From: Sutterella parvirubra YIT 11816
Lineage (GTDB): Bacteria > Pseudomonadota > Gammaproteobacteria > Burkholderiales > Burkholderiaceae_F
Length of the DNA stretch: 8,899 bases
Assembly (NCBI RefSeq): GCF_000250875.1
Contig: NZ_JH604899.1
Location: 4,296 to 13,194 of the forward strand
Direction of reading: 5' to 3'
The notes under the pieces were generated by a model, which had not been told where the DNA came from, made no database searches, and saw only the letters and a list, made by a program, of their open reading frames with translations. This document shows positions 989-8,899 of this stretch, piece by piece. Every line of letters begins with the position of its first letter. Within the stretch, counting starts at the first letter, position 1. A program made the position numbers and the translations under genes.

Positions 989-2502
989 CAGTGCGTCTCC
1001 TTCGCGCGGAGTGCGGCGACGCGGCGCTCAAGGAGCCCCTCGCGCACGGCTTCATGGTCAAGGAACGGGTGCTTCACGCCCATGATCTCCTGATAGTCTT
1101 CGTGGCCTTTGCCGGCCACCAGAATCACGTCCTCGGCGGCGGCCGCGCCGATCGCCGAGACGATCGCCAGGCGGCGGTCGGCTTCGACGCGCGCCTCGGG
1201 GGCACCTGCCACCACCTCGCGGATGATCGCGTCCGGGTCTTCGGTGCGGGGGTTGTCGCTCGTCACGACGACGTGGTCGGCCAAGGCGGCCGCCGTGCGG
1301 CCCATCATCGGGCGCTTCCCCGGATCGCGGTCGCCGCCGCAGCCGAAGACGCACCAAAGTTCGCCCCCGCGCGCACGCGCGACGGGCGCGAGGCTCTCCA
1401 GAGCCTTCTCCAAAGCGTCCGGCGTATGCGCATAGTCGACGAGCACCAGCGGTGCGGGGCCTTCGCCCGAGCGCACCCGCTCCATGCGTCCCGCCGGGGC
1501 GTGGAGTCCGGCGACGTGCGCGAGCACGGTCTCGGGGGCGTGTCCTTCGGCGAAGACGACGGCCAAGGCCGCAAGAAGGTTCGACGCGTTGAAGAACCCC
1601 GTCTGGGCGAAGTCCACCGGGCAGGAAACCCCGCGCCAGACGAGTTCGAACGCCATCCCCTCCGCGGTTGCGCGGAGGTTCCGGGCTTCGAGCGTTTCGT
1701 CGGCGTCAGGCAAAGTGCGGCCTTCGGTCGAATAGGACCAGACGCGCACGCCCGCCTTCTTCGCGACCGCGGCCATGCGTTCGCCTGCGGGGTCGTCCGC
1801 GTTGACGACGGCGTTCTTCAACCCGGGCCACGCAAAGAGGATCGCCTTCGCGTCGGCGTAGGCTTCCATCGTGCCGTGGTAGTCGAGGTGGTCGCGCGTG
1901 AGGTTCGTGAAGACGGCCGTGCGGAAGTGCGTGCCCGAAAGCCGCCCCTGCACGAGCCCGATCGAGCTCGCCTCGACCGCGAAGGCGTCCGCCCCCGCAC
2001 GCTTCAGATCGGCAAGGAGCCCCTGAAGCGACGCGGCGTCCGGGGTGGTGAGCGCGGGCGCTTCAAAGCGCACGCCGCCCAACGTCGTCCCGACGGTGCC
2101 CATGACGGCGGATTTGGTGCCCAAGGCGGAAAAGAGCGCCGCGATCCAGTGGGTCGTCGTGGTCTTCCCGTTCGTCCCCGTGACGGCGACCCCGGTCATC
2201 TGCGCCGAGGGTTCGCCGTAAAAGCCCGAGGCGATCTCACCCAGGCGCGGGAGAAGGTTCTCGACGTCCAGGGTCGGGACCGGATGGTGCTCAGGCAGGG
2301 CGCCGTCCGCCTCCATCAGCGCGCCCGCGGCGCCGCGCGCCGCGGCGACGCGGATGAAGTTGCGGCCGTCCGCGGCCGCGCCCGGCACCGCCACGAAGAC
2401 GTCGCCCGGCCTCACGCGCCGGCTGTCGAGCACGAGTCGGGCCCCTTCGTGGGCCAGTCCCCGCAGCCAGGCGAGGATGGAGTCGGTCGTACGGTTCTGC
2501 AT
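988..2502 (-). CDS. murE: UDP-N-acetylmuramoyl-L-alanyl-D-glutamate--2,6-diaminopimelate ligase
   Basis: MurE is a cytoplasmic ATP-dependent ligase that adds the third amino acid of the peptidoglycan stem peptide. The protein has 504 residues, a normal full length. The N-terminal domain carries LDSRRVRPGDVFVAVPG (25-41). The central domain has the P-loop GTNGKTTT (109-116), the substrate segment LTTPDAASLQ (151-160) and NLTRDHLDYHGTMEAYADAK (200-219); Lys219 is the likely carbamylated lysine. The C-terminal domain has DYAHTPDALEKAL (356-368), FGCGGDRDPGKRPMMG (386-401), the DNPR signature (416-419) and GKGHEDYQ (464-471). DNPR is the known determinant for meso-diaminopimelate over lysine, so this should be the DAP-adding form, as expected for a Gram-negative. 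The ATG at 2502 lies 27 bases after the ftsI stop with a GAGAG element upstream. The stop overlaps the murF start by one base. Confidence 0.97.
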   Translation of the reverse strand: MQNRTTDSILAWLRGLAHEGARLVLDSRRVRPGDVFVAVPGAAADGRNFIRVAAARGAAGALMEADGALPEHHPVPTLDVENLLPRLGEIASGFYGEPSAQMTGVAVTGTNGKTTTTHWIAALFSALGTKSAVMGTVGTTLGGVRFEAPALTTPDAASLQGLLADLKRAGADAFAVEASSIGLVQGRLSGTHFRTAVFTNLTRDHLDYHGTMEAYADAKAILFAWPGLKNAVVNADDPAGERMAAVAKKAGVRVWSYSTEGRTLPDADETLEARNLRATAEGMAFELVWRGVSCPVDFAQTGFFNASNLLAALAVVFAEGHAPETVLAHVAGLHAPAGRMERVRSGEGPAPLVLVDYAHTPDALEKALESLAPVARARGGELWCVFGCGGDRDPGKRPMMGRTAAALADHVVVTSDNPRTEDPDAIIREVVAGAPEARVEADRRLAIVSAIGAAAAEDVILVAGKGHEDYQEIMGVKHPFLDHEAVREGLLERRVAALRAKETH

Positions 2503-2529
2503 GCAAGCAAATCTCTCGATGGGTTTTCG

Positions 2530-4410
2530 TCAGTGCCGGATCTTGGCCATCAGGCCCACGCCTCCGGCGCTCGTCACGTCGTCGGGCGTCACCATCAGGG
2601 TGCGGAGCGCCCCTTCGGCGACGCGGTTGAAGACGGGCGCGGCGACGCGCCCGCCGAAGTGGTATTTGGGACCGGGCTCGTCGACCATCACCGCGATGAT
2701 GAAGCGGGGCTCGGTGGCGGGCACCAACCCGACGAAGCTCGCCACGACGTCGTTCGTGTAGCGGCCGTCCTTCACCTTGTTGGCGGTGCCGGTTTTTCCC
2801 GCGACGGAATAGCCCGCGACCTTGACGCGCGTCGCGGTCCCGCCGCGCGCGACGGTCTGCATCATCATCGCGCGCATGACGCGGGCGGTCTCGGGCTTGA
2901 AGACCTGCGTGCCCTTCTCGACCGGACCTTCACGCTTCTCAAGCGTCAAATCAATCACGTCGCCGTTTCGCGCCAGGGCCGTGTAGGCGCGCACGAGCTG
3001 CATCAAGGACGCGGTCATGCCGTGCCCGTAGGAAATCGTCGCCTGCTCGATCGGACGCCAGCTCTTCGCGGGGCGCAGACGCCCCGCGGTCGCGCCCGGG
3101 AACCCGATGTCGGGCGCGCGGCCGAACCCCAACGCCGTGTAGGTTTCCCACAGCGTCTGCGGCGCGATTTCGAGCGCGATCTTCGTGGTGCCGATGTTGG
3201 AGGACTTCGCGACGATTTCAGCGACGGTCAGCAACCCGTAGTCGTGCGTGTCCCCGATCGTGCGGTCGCCGATCGTGAGTTTGCCGGGCGCCGTCTGAAT
3301 GGTGGTGAGCGGGTCGACGATCCCCATGTCGATCGCCTTCGCGATGGCGAAGGGCTTCATCGTGGAGCCGGGTTCGAATTCGTCGGTCAGAACGCGGTTC
3401 CTCACGCGCTCGAAGACCATCGTCGAGCGGTCGTTCGGATCGTAGGTCGGGTTGTTCGCCAACGCGAGGATTTCGCCCGTGCGCACGTCCGCCACCACGA
3501 CCGCGCCCGCCTTCGCGCCCGACTCGACGATCATGTCGGAGAGCGCCTCGTACGCGATGAACTGCACGCGGGAGTCGATCGACAAGCTCACGTCGCGGCC
3601 TTCGACCGCGTCTTTCGCCCAGACGTCGTCGACGATGCGGCCCAACCGGTCGCGAAGCACGCGGCGCGCGCCGCCCTTGCCGGTCAGCACATCGTCCTTC
3701 GACAATTCCACGCCTTCCTGGCCGTGGTCGTCCCAACCCGTGAAGCCCACGACGTGCGCGGTCACGGGGCCGTCCGGATACTCGCGGAGCACCTCCGCCT
3801 GCACGCCGATCCCGGGGATGGCGAGCGCCTTCACGGCTTCCGCGGTCGCGAGGTCGCGCTTTCGCGCCAGGTAGACGAAGTTGCGCGACGGCGGGTTCTT
3901 GAGCTTCTTGTCCAAGTCCGCGTACGAGATCCCGAGGACCTCCGCCAACTTTTTGAGGTCTTCCTTCGTCGCCTTCTTCGTGAAGGCCGGGTCCGCCCAG
4001 ATGCTCCGGACGGGCTGGGTCGAGGCCAACACGACGCCGTTCCGGTCCAGAATCTCGCCGCGGGAGCCCGCGATCGTGATCGTGCGCGCGTAGCGCGCCT
4101 CGCCCTTGTCCTGAAGGAAGTCGCTCGTGTAGACCTGAAGCCAGAAGACGCGGACCGCGAGCCCCAGAAACGCGACCACGATCAGGAAGAACGCGAACTG
4201 CGTCCTCCACTTCGGGATCGGGATGAGAAGAAGCGGGCTCGCGCGGTTGATCGGCTGCGGCCGACGCGCTTCGCGGTCGGCGGCGAGCTTCTTCTGCACC
4301 CACTCGACCACCCAGCCCGCCACGTGCGTGAGCGCCCCCAGGACGTGCTCGCCCAAGCGTTCGAGCATGTCCTGGAGCCGCTCCATCACCGCGTCGACGA
4401 ACCGCCTCAT
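2530..4410 (-). CDS. ftsI: Septal peptidoglycan D,D-transpeptidase FtsI (class B penicillin-binding protein 3)
   Basis: FtsI crosslinks septal peptidoglycan in the periplasm and works with FtsW. The 626-residue protein has one transmembrane helix (about 69-92, QFAFFLIVVAFLGLAVRVFW), then the pedestal domain beginning with the conserved GSRGEILDRNGVVLA (115-129). The transpeptidase domain shows all three active-site motifs: STMK (349-352, nucleophile Ser349), SSN (403-405) and KTGT (539-542). The start at 4410 overlaps the ftsL stop in an ATGA, which supports it. This start leaves about 68 residues before the membrane helix, against roughly 20 in E. coli FtsI. The extension reads as a helical, partly amphipathic segment (ERLQDMLERLGEHVLGALTH, then AGWVVEWVQ). 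The other Met codons at positions 9 and 15 barely shorten it. The protein is anchored in the inner membrane with the catalytic domain outside. Its place between ftsL and murE matches the usual dcw order. Confidence 0.96.
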   Translation of the reverse strand: MRRFVDAVMERLQDMLERLGEHVLGALTHVAGWVVEWVQKKLAADREARRPQPINRASPLLLIPIPKWRTQFAFFLIVVAFLGLAVRVFWLQVYTSDFLQDKGEARYARTITIAGSRGEILDRNGVVLASTQPVRSIWADPAFTKKATKEDLKKLAEVLGISYADLDKKLKNPPSRNFVYLARKRDLATAEAVKALAIPGIGVQAEVLREYPDGPVTAHVVGFTGWDDHGQEGVELSKDDVLTGKGGARRVLRDRLGRIVDDVWAKDAVEGRDVSLSIDSRVQFIAYEALSDMIVESGAKAGAVVVADVRTGEILALANNPTYDPNDRSTMVFERVRNRVLTDEFEPGSTMKPFAIAKAIDMGIVDPLTTIQTAPGKLTIGDRTIGDTHDYGLLTVAEIVAKSSNIGTTKIALEIAPQTLWETYTALGFGRAPDIGFPGATAGRLRPAKSWRPIEQATISYGHGMTASLMQLVRAYTALARNGDVIDLTLEKREGPVEKGTQVFKPETARVMRAMMMQTVARGGTATRVKVAGYSVAGKTGTANKVKDGRYTNDVVASFVGLVPATEPRFIIAVMVDEPGPKYHFGGRVAAPVFNRVAEGALRTLMVTPDDVTSAGGVGLMAKIRH

Positions 4411-4820
4411 CGCGGCGCTCCCTGGCGCTTCGCGCGCTCAGCGGCCTTCTCCGCGGCCTTCTTCTCTTTTTCCGCCTGCTCGGCGTTCCAGGCCGCCAGG
4501 CGAGCCAATGTCTCTTCGCTCCAGACGATGCGCCCGTCCTCTTCCTGGACCATCGTCACGGTGTTGGCGCCGGTCGCGCCCTTCAAACCCAATTCGGCAG
4601 CGCCCGCCGCGATGTTCCCGGGGAGCGACGCGCGGTGCACCTTCATGAGAAGCTCCGAGCGGTCGTCCGAGAGACGCCGCATCAGATCCGCCTCACGCTC
4701 GTGCGCGGTGAAGGTCTGACGCGTCCGGTGGTGGAGTTCCACGGACGCGACGGCGCTCGCCAAGAGCCCCGCGCCCAAAACCACCACGAGCACGCGCTCG
4801 AACATGCTCGGCGTCGTCAT
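4407..4820 (-). CDS. ftsL: Cell division protein FtsL
   Basis: FtsL is a small bitopic membrane protein that forms a coiled coil with FtsB and, with FtsQ, activates the FtsWI septal synthase. The family is poorly conserved, so the call rests on architecture and position. The protein has 137 residues: a short cytoplasmic N-terminus, one membrane helix (about 8-27, [20 protein letters not shown]), then a charged periplasmic helical region (28-65) with the family-like segment [16 protein letters not shown]. It sits exactly between rsmH and ftsI. I chose the ATG at 4820 because it overlaps the rsmH stop in an ATGA; an in-frame upstream ATG at 4904 would add 28 Arg-rich residues from inside rsmH. 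The stop in turn overlaps the ftsI start in another ATGA. The C-terminus (102-137) is an Ala/Glu/Lys/Arg-rich tail that makes the protein somewhat longer than common FtsL proteins. Confidence 0.88.
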
Positions 4821-6505: not shown

Positions 6506-6831
6506 TCTGCGGCGGGACCTCCCCTGTAAGCCGGATTCTGTTCCGCGGGACAAGCCCGCGGTGACGATCATTCTTCCAGGACGCGGCTCGCGCCGCGCCT
6601 CAAGCCATCTACCCGCCGTCAGGACCGGGCAGGTCCCATGTGACGGCCTATTTGATGTTGCTCCCCGTAGAGATTGCCCGTTTCACCCGACCCGAAGTCG
6701 GCTCGTCTCTGTTGCTCTGATCCGCACCTCACGGTGGACAGGTGTTGCCTGCTACGGTGCCCTGCGGAGTCCGGACTTTCCTCCCGCGGCGCGAAGCCGC
6801 CGACGATCGTCCGGAGAACTCCCGCCGCAGA
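6506..6831 (-). ncRNA. rnpB: RNase P RNA, bacterial type A
   Basis: This is the catalytic RNA of ribonuclease P, which removes 5' leaders from pre-tRNAs. On the minus strand the conserved core is clear: GGAAAGTCCGGACTCC (6781 region), AGAGCAACAGAGACGAGCCG, GGGTGAAACGGGCAATCTCT, GCAACATCAAATAGGC, GAAGAATGATCGTC, and AGAATCCGGCTTACAGG near the 3' end. These correspond in order to the E. coli M1 RNA elements. TCTGCGGCGGGA at the 5' end (6831-6820) is perfectly complementary to TCCCGCCGCAGA at the 3' end (6517-6506), giving a 12-bp P1 helix and a length of about 326 nt. The exact ends are inferred from P1 and could shift by a few bases. A promoter and a terminator flank the gene. Open reading frames crossing this region are spurious. 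Confidence 0.96.
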
Positions 6832-6868: not shown

Positions 6869-7060
6869 CCCGTCCGGGGGCTTTTCGTCGCGGCCGCCTC
6901 ATCTTTTGGGCTCCGGTTTGACGCCCCGCGCCCGAAAAGCGTGGGAGAATGAGCCCCTCGACACATTTCCCCATTTCCAACGAGGCGGCCCGTTCCCGTT
7001 CCGGTTCCGGTTCCGGCGGAACCGATGCCGGAACCGGCAAAACCAGGCCGCCGCCACGAC
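6869..7060. other. Divergent intergenic region between rnpB and the PagP-like gene
   Basis: No gene is supported here. The region must hold the promoter of the plus-strand gene at 7061. A TTGACG (6918-6923) resembles a -35 element, but the best -10-like sequence, GAGAAT (6945-6950), is 21 bases away, so I do not call a promoter. The right part carries GTTCCG hexamer repeats and an inverted repeat, described separately. Confidence 0.5.
6992..7037. repeat. GTTCCG tandem hexamers with opposing inverted copies in the pagP-like gene leader
   Basis: GTTCCC at 6992-6997 is followed by three GTTCCG units (6998-7015). Inverted CGGAAC copies follow at 7017-7022 and 7029-7034. CCGGTTCCGG (7001-7010) is perfectly complementary to CCGGAACCGG (7028-7037), so the transcript could form a 10-bp hairpin with a 17-base loop. 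The loop contains the alternative ATG at 7025. The hairpin ends 23 bases before the chosen start codon. Confidence 0.75.
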
Positions 7061-8233
7061 ATGACGAAGGTTAAGCACATCACCATCGCCGCGCTTCTCG
7101 CGGCCGCGGGCGCCGCCCATGCGGGCTTCGGCGACGCGATCAACGCCATCATCGACACGACTCCCGCAGGGGCCGCGCGCTCCGCCGCGGACCGCCCCGG
7201 CGACTTCGGCACCTTCTGGGCCGACACGGTCGAAGGCACCCGCATGATCGCGTCGAAGGGCGCCGACCTTCTGATCCTGCCCACCTACACCAACCACCCG
7301 ACCTGGGACTGGCCCCAGCGCGACGAGGAAAACGCGAACCCGTTCGGTGCGGGCTTCGGCCGTCAGCTGATCGATGAGCGCGGCAACGAACGCACGCTCT
7401 TCGCGATCGCCTTCGTCGACTCCAACTACCGCGTGGAACCCGTGGTGGGCTACTCCTGGGTGGCGCGCTGGCCGATTTTCAACACCGGCCTCCACTGGGG
7501 TGCGGGCTACATCGCCGGCATCACCGCCCGCGGCGACTACGCGTGGCTCCCCTTCCCGATGCCCTTGCCCGTCGCCAAGATCGGCAACGACACGTTCTCC
7601 TTCTACGGGACCTACATCCCCTTCACGAACGTGTTCTTCTTCTACTCCACGATCGCGATCGACAACGCGGGCTCGCGCAAGAACCCGCTCCCCGCGTCGA
7701 GCCCCTTCGCGGACGGGCGCACCTTCATCTACGGGGGCGCAGGCTGGACCTACATGGACAACAGCGAAGAGGAGTCGAAGAACACCATCAAGAACGACTC
7801 GAGCTGGAACGTCGGCATCCGCCGCTACTCGGGCCGCCACTGGCAGACCGACCTCAAGTACAAGCGCGCGAAGAACGACATCCGCGTCTACACGGACGCC
7901 GCGCAGACGAAGGGCGAACACAAACAGCGGCTGGAGACCGAGACCTACTCGCTCACGATCGCCTACGGCATCGACGTCGCGAAGAGCTTCCGACTCTTCG
8001 CCGGCGCCGGTCTCGGGTACAGCCGCGCCGAAACCTCGACCGGCAAGGACGACTCCTGGCACCCCGTCCTCACGACGGGCTTCACCTGGGCGCCGCTCCC
8101 CAACGTTCAGGTGACGGGCGGGATCGACACCTCGTTCGCGCGCTACTACGGCGTCGTCGAAGGCCGCCCCGGGAGCTACGGTCTGCGCGCCATGCCGACC
8201 GACTTCAACCTCTCGGTGGGCTTCGCCTTCTGA
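7061..8233 (+). CDS. PagP-family lipid A acyltransferase fused to a second eight-stranded outer-membrane barrel
   Basis: The 390-residue precursor has a signal peptide (1-21, cleavage after AHA). Residues 47-200 are a PagP domain: an N-terminal amphipathic helix (about 47-63), LILPTYTNHPTW (71-82), NPFGAGFG (93-100), LFAIAFVDSNYRVEPVVGYSW (113-133), AGITARGDYAWLPFPMPLP (152-170) and YGTYIP (182-187). PagP moves an acyl chain from phospholipid to lipid A in the outer membrane. Its catalytic residues (E. coli His33, Asp76, Ser77) align to His79, Asp120 and Ser121. E. coli PagP ends at strand 8; here a 20-residue linker (201-220) leads to about 170 residues with eight alternating strands (near 221-232, 249-256, 260-270, 293-304, 309-323, 334-345, 349-362, 381-390), ending GFAF with a C-terminal Phe, as outer-membrane proteins do. 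I see no PagL HxSN motif there. An in-frame ATG at 7025 would add 12 residues before the signal; 7061 gives a cleaner signal, though its ribosome site is weak. A terminator follows. Confidence 0.88.
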   Translation: MTKVKHITIAALLAAAGAAHAGFGDAINAIIDTTPAGAARSAADRPGDFGTFWADTVEGTRMIASKGADLLILPTYTNHPTWDWPQRDEENANPFGAGFGRQLIDERGNERTLFAIAFVDSNYRVEPVVGYSWVARWPIFNTGLHWGAGYIAGITARGDYAWLPFPMPLPVAKIGNDTFSFYGTYIPFTNVFFFYSTIAIDNAGSRKNPLPASSPFADGRTFIYGGAGWTYMDNSEEESKNTIKNDSSWNVGIRRYSGRHWQTDLKYKRAKNDIRVYTDAAQTKGEHKQRLETETYSLTIAYGIDVAKSFRLFAGAGLGYSRAETSTGKDDSWHPVLTTGFTWAPLPNVQVTGGIDTSFARYYGVVEGRPGSYGLRAMPTDFNLSVGFAF

Positions 8234-8261
8234 GGAAGCCGCTGACGCCGGTGCATTTCCC

Positions 8262-8298
8262 AAAAAGCCGCGGGCGCGACGCCGCCCGCGGCTTTTTT
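8262..8298 (+). terminator. Rho-independent terminator after the PagP-like gene
   Basis: GCCGCGGGCG (8267-8276) pairs perfectly with CGCCCGCGGC (8283-8292) around a six-base loop. The stem is flanked by AAAAA (8262-8266) and followed by six T (8293-8298). It lies 28 bases after the stop codon and separates this gene from hemL. Confidence 0.93.
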
Positions 8299-8400
8299 GC
8301 GCCTTCCGGCACCTTCCGCCCTCTCGGGACGGAGACGGCGCCGCAACGCCCGCAGACACATCCGCACCCGCTTCTTAACGGCCGCCTCAGCATTCGCCAC

Positions 8401-8515: not shown

Positions 8516-8899
8516 ATGGACCGCAATGAACAGCTTTTCGAACGCGCCCAGAAGGTCATCCCCGGCGGCGTCAACTCGCCCGTGCGCGCGTTCCGTTCCG
8601 TGGGCGGCGCCCCGCGCTTCATCGAGCGCGCCAAGGGTCCCCACATGTGGGACGCCGAAGGCAAGCAGTACGTCGACTACGTGTGCTCCTGGGGCCCGAT
8701 GATCCTCGGCCACAACCATCCGGCCGTTCTGGAAGCCCTCCACGCCGCCGTGGAGCGCGGGATTTCCTTCGGCGCCGCTACGGAAGCCGAAATCGAAATC
8801 GCGGAAGAGATCCGCAAGATCGTCCCCTCGATGGAGGAAGTGCGCTTGGTCTCCTCCGGCACCGAAGCCGGCATGAGCGCCATCCGTCTTGCGCGCGGC
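8516..8899 (+). CDS. hemL: Glutamate-1-semialdehyde 2,1-aminomutase, 3' end cut by window
   Basis: HemL is a cytoplasmic pyridoxal-phosphate enzyme that converts glutamate-1-semialdehyde into 5-aminolevulinate, the precursor of haem and other tetrapyrroles in the C5 pathway. The first 128 codons are present, out of about 425 in the family. They match strongly: [17 protein letters not shown] (15-31), [20 protein letters not shown] (52-71), [17 protein letters not shown] (80-96) and [20 protein letters not shown] (109-128). SSGTEA forms part of the cofactor phosphate site. The catalytic lysine would lie beyond the window edge. The start codon follows an AAGGAG site. The gene is separated from the upstream gene by a terminator and appears to have its own promoter. 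Using the C5 route fits a non-alphaproteobacterial Gram-negative. Confidence 0.97.

Follow-up and report, generated by a model that had tools for sequence, protein, structure and literature searches.

An 8,899-nucleotide stretch of the Sutterella parvirubra YIT 11816 genome (contig NZ_JH604899.1, positions 4,296 to 13,194 of the forward strand), henceforth referred to as the window, contains a gene in which a PagP-family domain is joined in one reading frame to a second predicted outer-membrane barrel. The features of this gene, referred to here as the PagP-barrel fusion, are listed with those of its immediate surroundings in Table 1. An alternative in-frame ATG at 7025 would yield a 402-residue product; position 7061 is the more probable start, as a typical signal peptide begins there.

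Table 1 Features of the PagP-barrel fusion gene and its surroundings in the window (fused rows are defined in the text).
Feature	Position	Strand	Remark
PagP-barrel fusion gene	7061-8233	+	390 codons and stop, no internal stop
Likely signal peptide, residues 1-21 (MTKVKHITIAALLAAAGAAHA)	7061-7123	+	Assigned by reading the sequence
N-terminal helix, residues 49-66, preceding the first strand as in PagP	7205-7258	+	AlphaFold2 model; solved PagP aligns from residue 47
PagP barrel, residues 68-200, eight predicted strands	7262-7660	+	
Catalytic His79 (E. coli His33)	7295-7297	+	H in 41/41 fused rows
Catalytic Asp120 and Ser121 (E. coli Asp76, Ser77)	7418-7423	+	D and S in 41/41 fused rows
Ser132 at the E. 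coli Gly88 position	7454-7456	+	Alignment maps 132 to 88
Linker, residues 201-220	7661-7720	+	Between the two barrels in the AlphaFold2 model
Second barrel, residues 221-390, eight predicted strands	7721-8230	+	OmpW-like by sequence
Terminal Phe390, closing the last strand's likely assembly signal	8228-8230	+	F in 41/41 fused rows
Likely intrinsic terminator, 3' of the fusion gene	8262-8302	+	Hairpin -27.9 kcal/mol, z -3.3 against shuffles, then a U run
RNase P RNA, class A	6511-6822	-	Full-model match of 212 bits; lies between the fusion gene and mraZ

The two halves of the protein were recognized by separate domain searches. The Pfam PagP family (PF07017) matched residues 66-191 with 98.2 bits (cut-off 24), and the barrel family OMP_b-brl (PF13505) matched residues 223-390 with 29.1 bits in the whole protein and 30.9 bits in the C-terminal piece alone, barely exceeding its cut-off of 28.7. 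AlphaFold2 predicted two separate eight-stranded barrels, with a predicted local distance difference test score (pLDDT) of 90.5 and a predicted template modelling score (pTM) of 0.86. The predicted strands comprise residues 68-78, 96-104, 110-119, 125-139, 144-156, 164-175, 179-186 and 191-200 in the first barrel and 221-231, 246-257, 261-278, 285-307, 310-324, 329-346, 349-358 and 380-389 in the second. A relative with 39% identity was again predicted to form two eight-stranded barrels. By structure comparison, residues 47-201 match solved PagP and residues 202-390 match OmpA, OmpW and NspA, each half superposing on closed single barrels with a root-mean-square deviation (rmsd) of about 2-3 Å. 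The VIA-align fold lists were dominated by matches to the second barrel, and absence from those lists does not count against a family. These results bear out the original prediction, made from the letters of the window, of a PagP enzyme followed in the same chain by a second complete eight-stranded barrel ending in Phe; by prediction, in two models, this is a multi-barrel protein with two closed barrels. A single 16-stranded barrel, which had been offered as an alternative, would agree with the strand count of 16 and with the good E-values of porins in the Foldseek list. Large porins, however, fit the whole chain only with an rmsd of about 20 Å and a template modelling (TM) score of about 0.2, against the close fit of each half to a closed single barrel, and this arrangement is considered very improbable.

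The joined gene recurs in both isolates and metagenome genomes. A protein search that scored the 7998 candidates sharing most words with the fusion protein, keeping matches at E ≤ 0.001, returned at least 78 relatives among these best candidates, the closest being 99% identical. Named genomes contributed seven loci (Sutterella wadsworthensis DSM 14016, S. seckii, three uncultured Sutterella, a Sutterellaceae and a Duodenibacillus assembly). Within the Sutterella-containing family (the S. wadsworthensis group), PagP was found in 40 of 67 genomes as 41 matches, every one in a frame of 380-552 residues. One of the 41 was read through a TAG codon, and the joined frame has no internal stop in 39 of the 40 PagP-bearing genomes, including S. 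wadsworthensis DSM 14016 and S. seckii; a fusion of two genes through sequencing error was therefore rejected. The interrupted copy, from a canine Sutterella metagenome assembly (G002; L002 / L132), carries the in-frame TAG within its PagP part and is either an assembly error or a broken copy. Four protein matches (P0038, P0039, P0049 and P0074) carry unrelated N-termini, metallophosphatase-like or other, on the same PagP stretch; they were judged to be likely chimeric metagenome contigs, three from their whole sequences and P0049 from its two ends, and were excluded from the alignments.

Of 200 genomes drawn evenly from the order, 31 had a PagP match, in 30 of them above the cut-off; five of the 31 lie inside the family and 26 outside it. 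Frames outside the family were 72-294 residues long, save one of 417 with PagP at its very end. Fifteen of 369 genomes drawn from the class had PagP, and the 14 besides Sutterella had it in frames 125-279 residues long, one of which contains two TAG codons. For residue comparisons, the fused rows consist of the window and 40 copies from 39 genomes (41 rows; G002 was dropped for its stop and G061, which has two copies, was counted twice), and the standalone rows consist of 24 PagPs from elsewhere in the order together with E. coli PagP (25 rows). A profile of the second half was built from alignment A2, which holds 33 of the 36 available second halves (L002, L029 and L038 were left out). It found no match in the 24 standalone PagP loci or in E. 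coli PagP, a count that leaves aside three weak or partial matches from the PagP search of the order draw. In the 67 family genomes it gave 41 strong matches, all beside PagP matches (in G002 on the second piece), and five weak matches in four genomes at 18.7-56.7 bits. The best of these weak matches, in G046, is an ordinary 210-residue OmpW (PF03922, 152.7 bits), and no closer donor for the second half was found in the 67 genomes.

A quick tree built from the PagP part separates the 41 fused rows from the 25 standalone rows, with one change, at a branch with a Shimodaira-Hasegawa-like approximate likelihood ratio test (SH-aLRT) value of 92. Because the fused PagPs form one clade and the standalone PagPs lack the second domain, the simplest history would be one fusion followed by whole-gene loss in some genomes; 27 of the 67 family genomes have no PagP match, for which genome incompleteness is possible. 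A standalone PagP in G077 (L061 / L157) is placed beside the fused clade on the tree and likewise has a short loop 4; no barrel gene that could represent an unfused forerunner occurs among the listed frames around it, which include flanking purH-like and purD-like genes by reading of their translations. Genome G061 carries two fusion genes in tandem (L100, 2038-3366 and 3553-4797) between the mraZ/rsmH side and hemL, and as these copies are sisters on the tree they probably reflect a duplication. No relative was found in viral contigs, where only close relatives were searched, and none of 135 plasmid records with a match covered 80% of the query. The ratio of nonsynonymous to synonymous substitution rates (dN/dS) in ten pairs of related fusions was 0.012-0.390 for the PagP part (nine values, one pair being saturated) and 0.034-0.529 for the second barrel (ten values), with the second half above the PagP half in eight of the nine pairs that have both values; the two highest pairs, both of which include L136, are strongly diverged and less sure. 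Both halves thus appear to be kept under purifying selection.

The first half matches solved PagP by sequence with E about 1e-21. In an alignment anchored on E. coli His33, residues His79, Asp120 and Ser121 correspond to positions 33, 76 and 77, which we take to be the catalytic residues of PagP; together with the Pfam match, this agrees with the earlier claim that the catalytic residues of the PagP domain are intact. In addition to these three, Asn91, Arg157, Asp159, Pro164 and Pro170 are invariant in the 41 fused rows, while Pro166 and Pro187 are each kept in 39; Pro164, Pro166, Pro170 and Pro187 are presumably the prolines flanking the PagP lipid gates. Position 132 corresponds to E. coli Gly88, which we take to be the floor of the acyl-chain pocket (the acyl ruler), tied to palmitate selection; it was reportedly described as the floor of the ruler by Ahn et al. 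in 2004. The fused rows have A16 S11 G8 Q4 T2 at this position and the 24 standalone rows without E. coli have G10 A10 M2 R1 T1, and glycine at the pocket floor is not universal in the PagP family either. A side chain at position 132, which is Ser in the window, would be expected to shorten the accepted acyl chain. Compared with PagP (PF07017; E. coli, PDB 3gp6, 1thq, 1mm4), the fusion shares the catalytic His/Asp/Ser, the N-terminal helix, the predicted eight-stranded barrel and the gate-flanking prolines, but differs in its appended second barrel, a chain end that lies on that barrel, a short loop 4, Ser132 and a score below the equivalog cut-off. Loop 4 has five residues in all 41 fused rows, compared to 9-12 in 22 of the 25 standalone rows and 3-5 in the other three, and R111, R136 and Y182, fixed in the fused rows, occur in 2, 3 and 4 standalone rows, respectively.

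We infer that the PagP half is active as an acyltransferase. The E. coli enzyme transfers palmitate from phospholipid to lipid A, according to the accessible part of its description (PMC3906610), and since LpxC genes are present in 63 of the 67 family genomes, the lipid A acceptor is likely to be made.

The two barrels are predicted to be joined by a short periplasmic linker. Its length of 20 residues is as originally described, and it contains Pro and Ser, although it is not notably rich in these residues as had been claimed; across the fused rows the linker has 20 residues in 32 of 41 and 18-31 in the others. A pTM of 0.86, given two domains of roughly the same size, indicates that the barrels probably pack against one another. 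The near-constant length of the linker and the shortened loop 4 would fit such packing.

The second-half profile matched AlkL with E 4.8e-7, followed by NspA (5e-4), OmpW (0.001) and OmpA (0.012). All 33 members of A2 matched PF13505, 15 matched the OmpW family PF03922 (E ≤ 0.01) and seven matched OmpA_membrane; the second half of the window itself gave no match to PF03922 up to E 1. Eight of the 15 matches of the profile in the protein database have an OmpW domain and no PagP, and the remainder are whole or partial fusion proteins. The second half therefore probably descends from an OmpW-like barrel. It shares with OmpW, OprG and AlkL (PF03922; PDB 2f1t, 2x27, 6qam) a full-length alignment, a predicted eight-stranded barrel fold and the QY(H), GxGxxY and terminal motifs. 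The OmpA transmembrane barrel is a weaker sequence match, and OmpA is a protein in its own right, with an additional C-terminal domain. Two larger alignments were drawn from the protein matches: A1 (54 rows) holds the window and 53 of the 78 protein matches, with fragments, chimeras and near-copies left out, and A3 combines the window with 47 of the 78 protein matches and four of the 15 second-half profile matches. Four truncated fusions (P0080-P0083) resemble the early-branching group, and three of them are labelled 'outer membrane protein W' at source despite carrying PagP.

Descent from this family raises the possibility that the second barrel is an OmpW/AlkL-type channel, taking up small hydrophobic molecules or feeding acyl donors to PagP. 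AlkL and OmpW are its closest sequence relatives, and OmpW/AlkL proteins have been proposed to discharge hydrophobic molecules laterally into the membrane; in the accessible part of the same paper, Pro69, Pro94 and Pro95 of OprG adjoin the lateral opening (PMC2993939). These prolines were equated by motif with P60, P80 and P81 of E. coli OmpW, OprG being absent from the alignment. At these three positions, Pro occurs in 0, 4 and 0 of the 41 fused rows as opposed to 4, 7 and 6 of seven OmpW rows, and the mean Kyte-Doolittle hydropathy of the upper lumen is -0.53 in the fused rows versus +0.38 in the OmpW rows, a rough comparison in which strand facing was guessed from hydrophobicity. In view of the near absence of the gate prolines, the second barrel is probably not a channel, and a transport role is judged unlikely. 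Because the defining OmpW gate feature is missing from nearly all fused rows, the second half is classed as OmpW-derived rather than OmpW, from which it further differs in a seemingly less hydrophobic upper lumen, in the lack of a PF03922 match in the window and in its attachment to PagP.

Two other functions were weighed for the second barrel. It might act at the cell surface as a receptor or adhesin, in the manner of NspA, Opa or Ail, and merely travel with PagP, in line with the NspA match. Fold matches among eight-stranded barrels are uninformative on function, however, the best sequence match is AlkL, and a passenger role leaves unexplained why all 41 strong second-half matches lie beside PagP; this explanation is as doubtful as the channel. 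A PagL-type lipid A enzyme would have one chain both adding and removing acyl chains. The PagL active site is presumably His-Ser-Glu, and residues 221-390 contain no fully invariant His, Ser or Glu over the 54 rows of A1, His272 being nearly so (PagL was compared without sequence alignment). The fully invariant positions in this half are D233, R254, W261, Y302, R311, G315, P335, G340, T342, G387, A389 and F390. With OmpA and OmpW also matching better, a second lipid A enzyme is highly unlikely.

The interpretation we favor, with a probability of about 0.55, is that a PagP lipid A acyltransferase is tethered to a predicted separate eight-stranded barrel, probably of OmpW descent, that likely serves it as a structural or regulatory partner and not as a channel. 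The earlier suggestions that the second barrel might position the enzyme, sense membrane damage or bind a partner are thereby narrowed to a putative tethered partner, derived from an OmpW-type barrel whose gate prolines have been lost. The PagP barrel would move an acyl chain from a stray outer-leaflet phospholipid to lipid A, and the second barrel, flanking one side of it at a fixed 1:1 ratio, would steady the enzyme and set the ease of lipid access. The chain would be inserted by way of the assembly signal of the second barrel. A possible precedent is found in the accessible part of Machin et al. (PMC7617971), where OmpA or its barrel at about 1:1 lowered PagP activity to about 35% and 45%, OmpX was without effect, and blocked phospholipid access was named as a possible cause of the OmpA effect. 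A fused barrel would be a fixed 1:1 neighbor akin to OmpA in that experiment. In a more specific and tentative version, a gut-bacterial lineage would have joined PagP on a single occasion to an OmpW channel, whose side gate then closed and which turned into a built-in clamp setting the rate of acyl transfer by PagP, as a covalent counterpart of the inhibition by OmpA.

Several points weigh against a tethered regulatory partner. The OmpA precedent concerns separate E. coli proteins, for which AlphaFold2 gave no confident contact, and OmpW is not named among the proteins tested with PagP in the accessible part of that work (PMC7617971); experiments on any fused PagP protein were not found in the literature. 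Packing of the two barrels is inferred from the pTM only, and by fold OmpA and OmpW are tied as matches to the second half. The four fused rows that keep one gate proline are all four rows of one early-branching group, and a different gate proline is kept in just four of the seven OmpW rows themselves. The polar share of the whole lumen is equal in fused and OmpW rows (0.28 vs 0.28), differing in the upper half (0.29 vs 0.21), and with seven OmpW rows and guessed facing, the lumen comparison is a weak argument that the barrel is not a channel. With regard to the enzyme, the donor chain may be other than palmitate, since Ser132 replaces Gly88, and the NCBIfam equivalog PRK11045 was missed with 103.8 bits against a cut-off of 155, so that the first half is a PagP family member and not a confirmed equivalog.

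As the chain ends only on the second barrel, help in folding is a serious rival to the tethered partner, though we think it the less probable explanation. In that case, the last strand of the second barrel likely carries the signal for the barrel assembly machinery (BAM), and the barrel itself would help a slow-folding PagP half to insert and leave the mature enzyme unaffected. All 41 fused rows end in Phe on the second barrel, the PagP half having no end of its own, and PagP failed to fold into dimyristoylphosphatidylglycerol (DMPG) liposomes where the other tested proteins did, according to the same accessible text (PMC7617971). However, standalone PagPs do without a second domain (0 of 25 rows), and the near-constant linker and shortened loop 4 point to a relationship of the two barrels in their mature state. 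An assembly aid and a tethered partner can both be true together.

The minus strand of the window encodes MurF, whose gene is truncated at the window edge, as well as MurE, an FtsI-type penicillin-binding protein, FtsL (a weak assignment), RsmH and MraZ. A class-III aminotransferase gene, hemL by reading of its translation, starts at 8516, beyond the fusion gene and the terminator-like hairpin; a consensus terminator scan reported a terminator-like site at 8262-8302 on the minus strand only. In the regions of 40 relatives, taken up to 4 kb on each side and in several cases cut by contig ends, rsmH lies upstream in 21 and a hemL-like gene downstream in 32, and no functional link between the fusion gene and its neighbors was seen. 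Long open frames run antisense to real genes at 991-4719 (plus strand, 1242 residues) and 6899-8359 (minus strand, 486 residues), probably as a by-product of the 88-94% G+C at third codon positions.

In the accessible part of a 2016 paper (PMC5080374), Sutterella strains other than the family genomes used here lacked LpxL and LpxM, and a tetra-acylated lipid A was considered likely. The acyltransferase family PF03279 scored over its cut-off in 66 of the 67 family genomes, barely so in a few, and S. wadsworthensis DSM 14016 has two adjacent PF03279 genes (G001 contig C44:3325-5057). Given these genes and the PagP fusion, Sutterella lipid A may carry more chains than supposed, although membership of PF03279 is no proof of LpxL function.

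Multi-barrel outer-membrane proteins include lineage-specific fusions. They form a described class (Solan et al. 2021, as presented in the accessible parts of citing papers PMC8592465 and PMC11494523), which qualifies the original view that tandem barrels in one polypeptide are uncommon. The other part of that view, that no PagP fusion of this kind had been described, agrees with the literature matches listed: no natural PagP-barrel fusion was among them, although the 2021 survey might include one. An artificial PagP fusion tag turned up among these matches, and the sole paper with both PagP and Sutterella concerns microbiomes in its accessible part. The protein shares with GfcD and YjbH the presence of more than one barrel in one chain (PMC8592465, PMC11494523), while GfcD is modelled with 12 and 13 strands and an intervening domain and the fusion has the barrel of a known enzyme family and a 20-residue linker. 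The PagP-barrel fusion is real and conserved, and is a new case within this known class.

Contacts between outer-membrane barrels are thought to tune enzymes, but such effects are difficult to test when the partners are separate proteins. In the fusion, evolution has seemingly fixed one such pair covalently at 1:1, with a member of an assayable enzyme family. The protein is also a test case for how BAM inserts a chain that has two barrels and only one terminal signal. Within the genome sample, the fusion occurs only in a single family, which includes gut bacteria, and it bears on the lipid A of Sutterella, which is sensed by the host.
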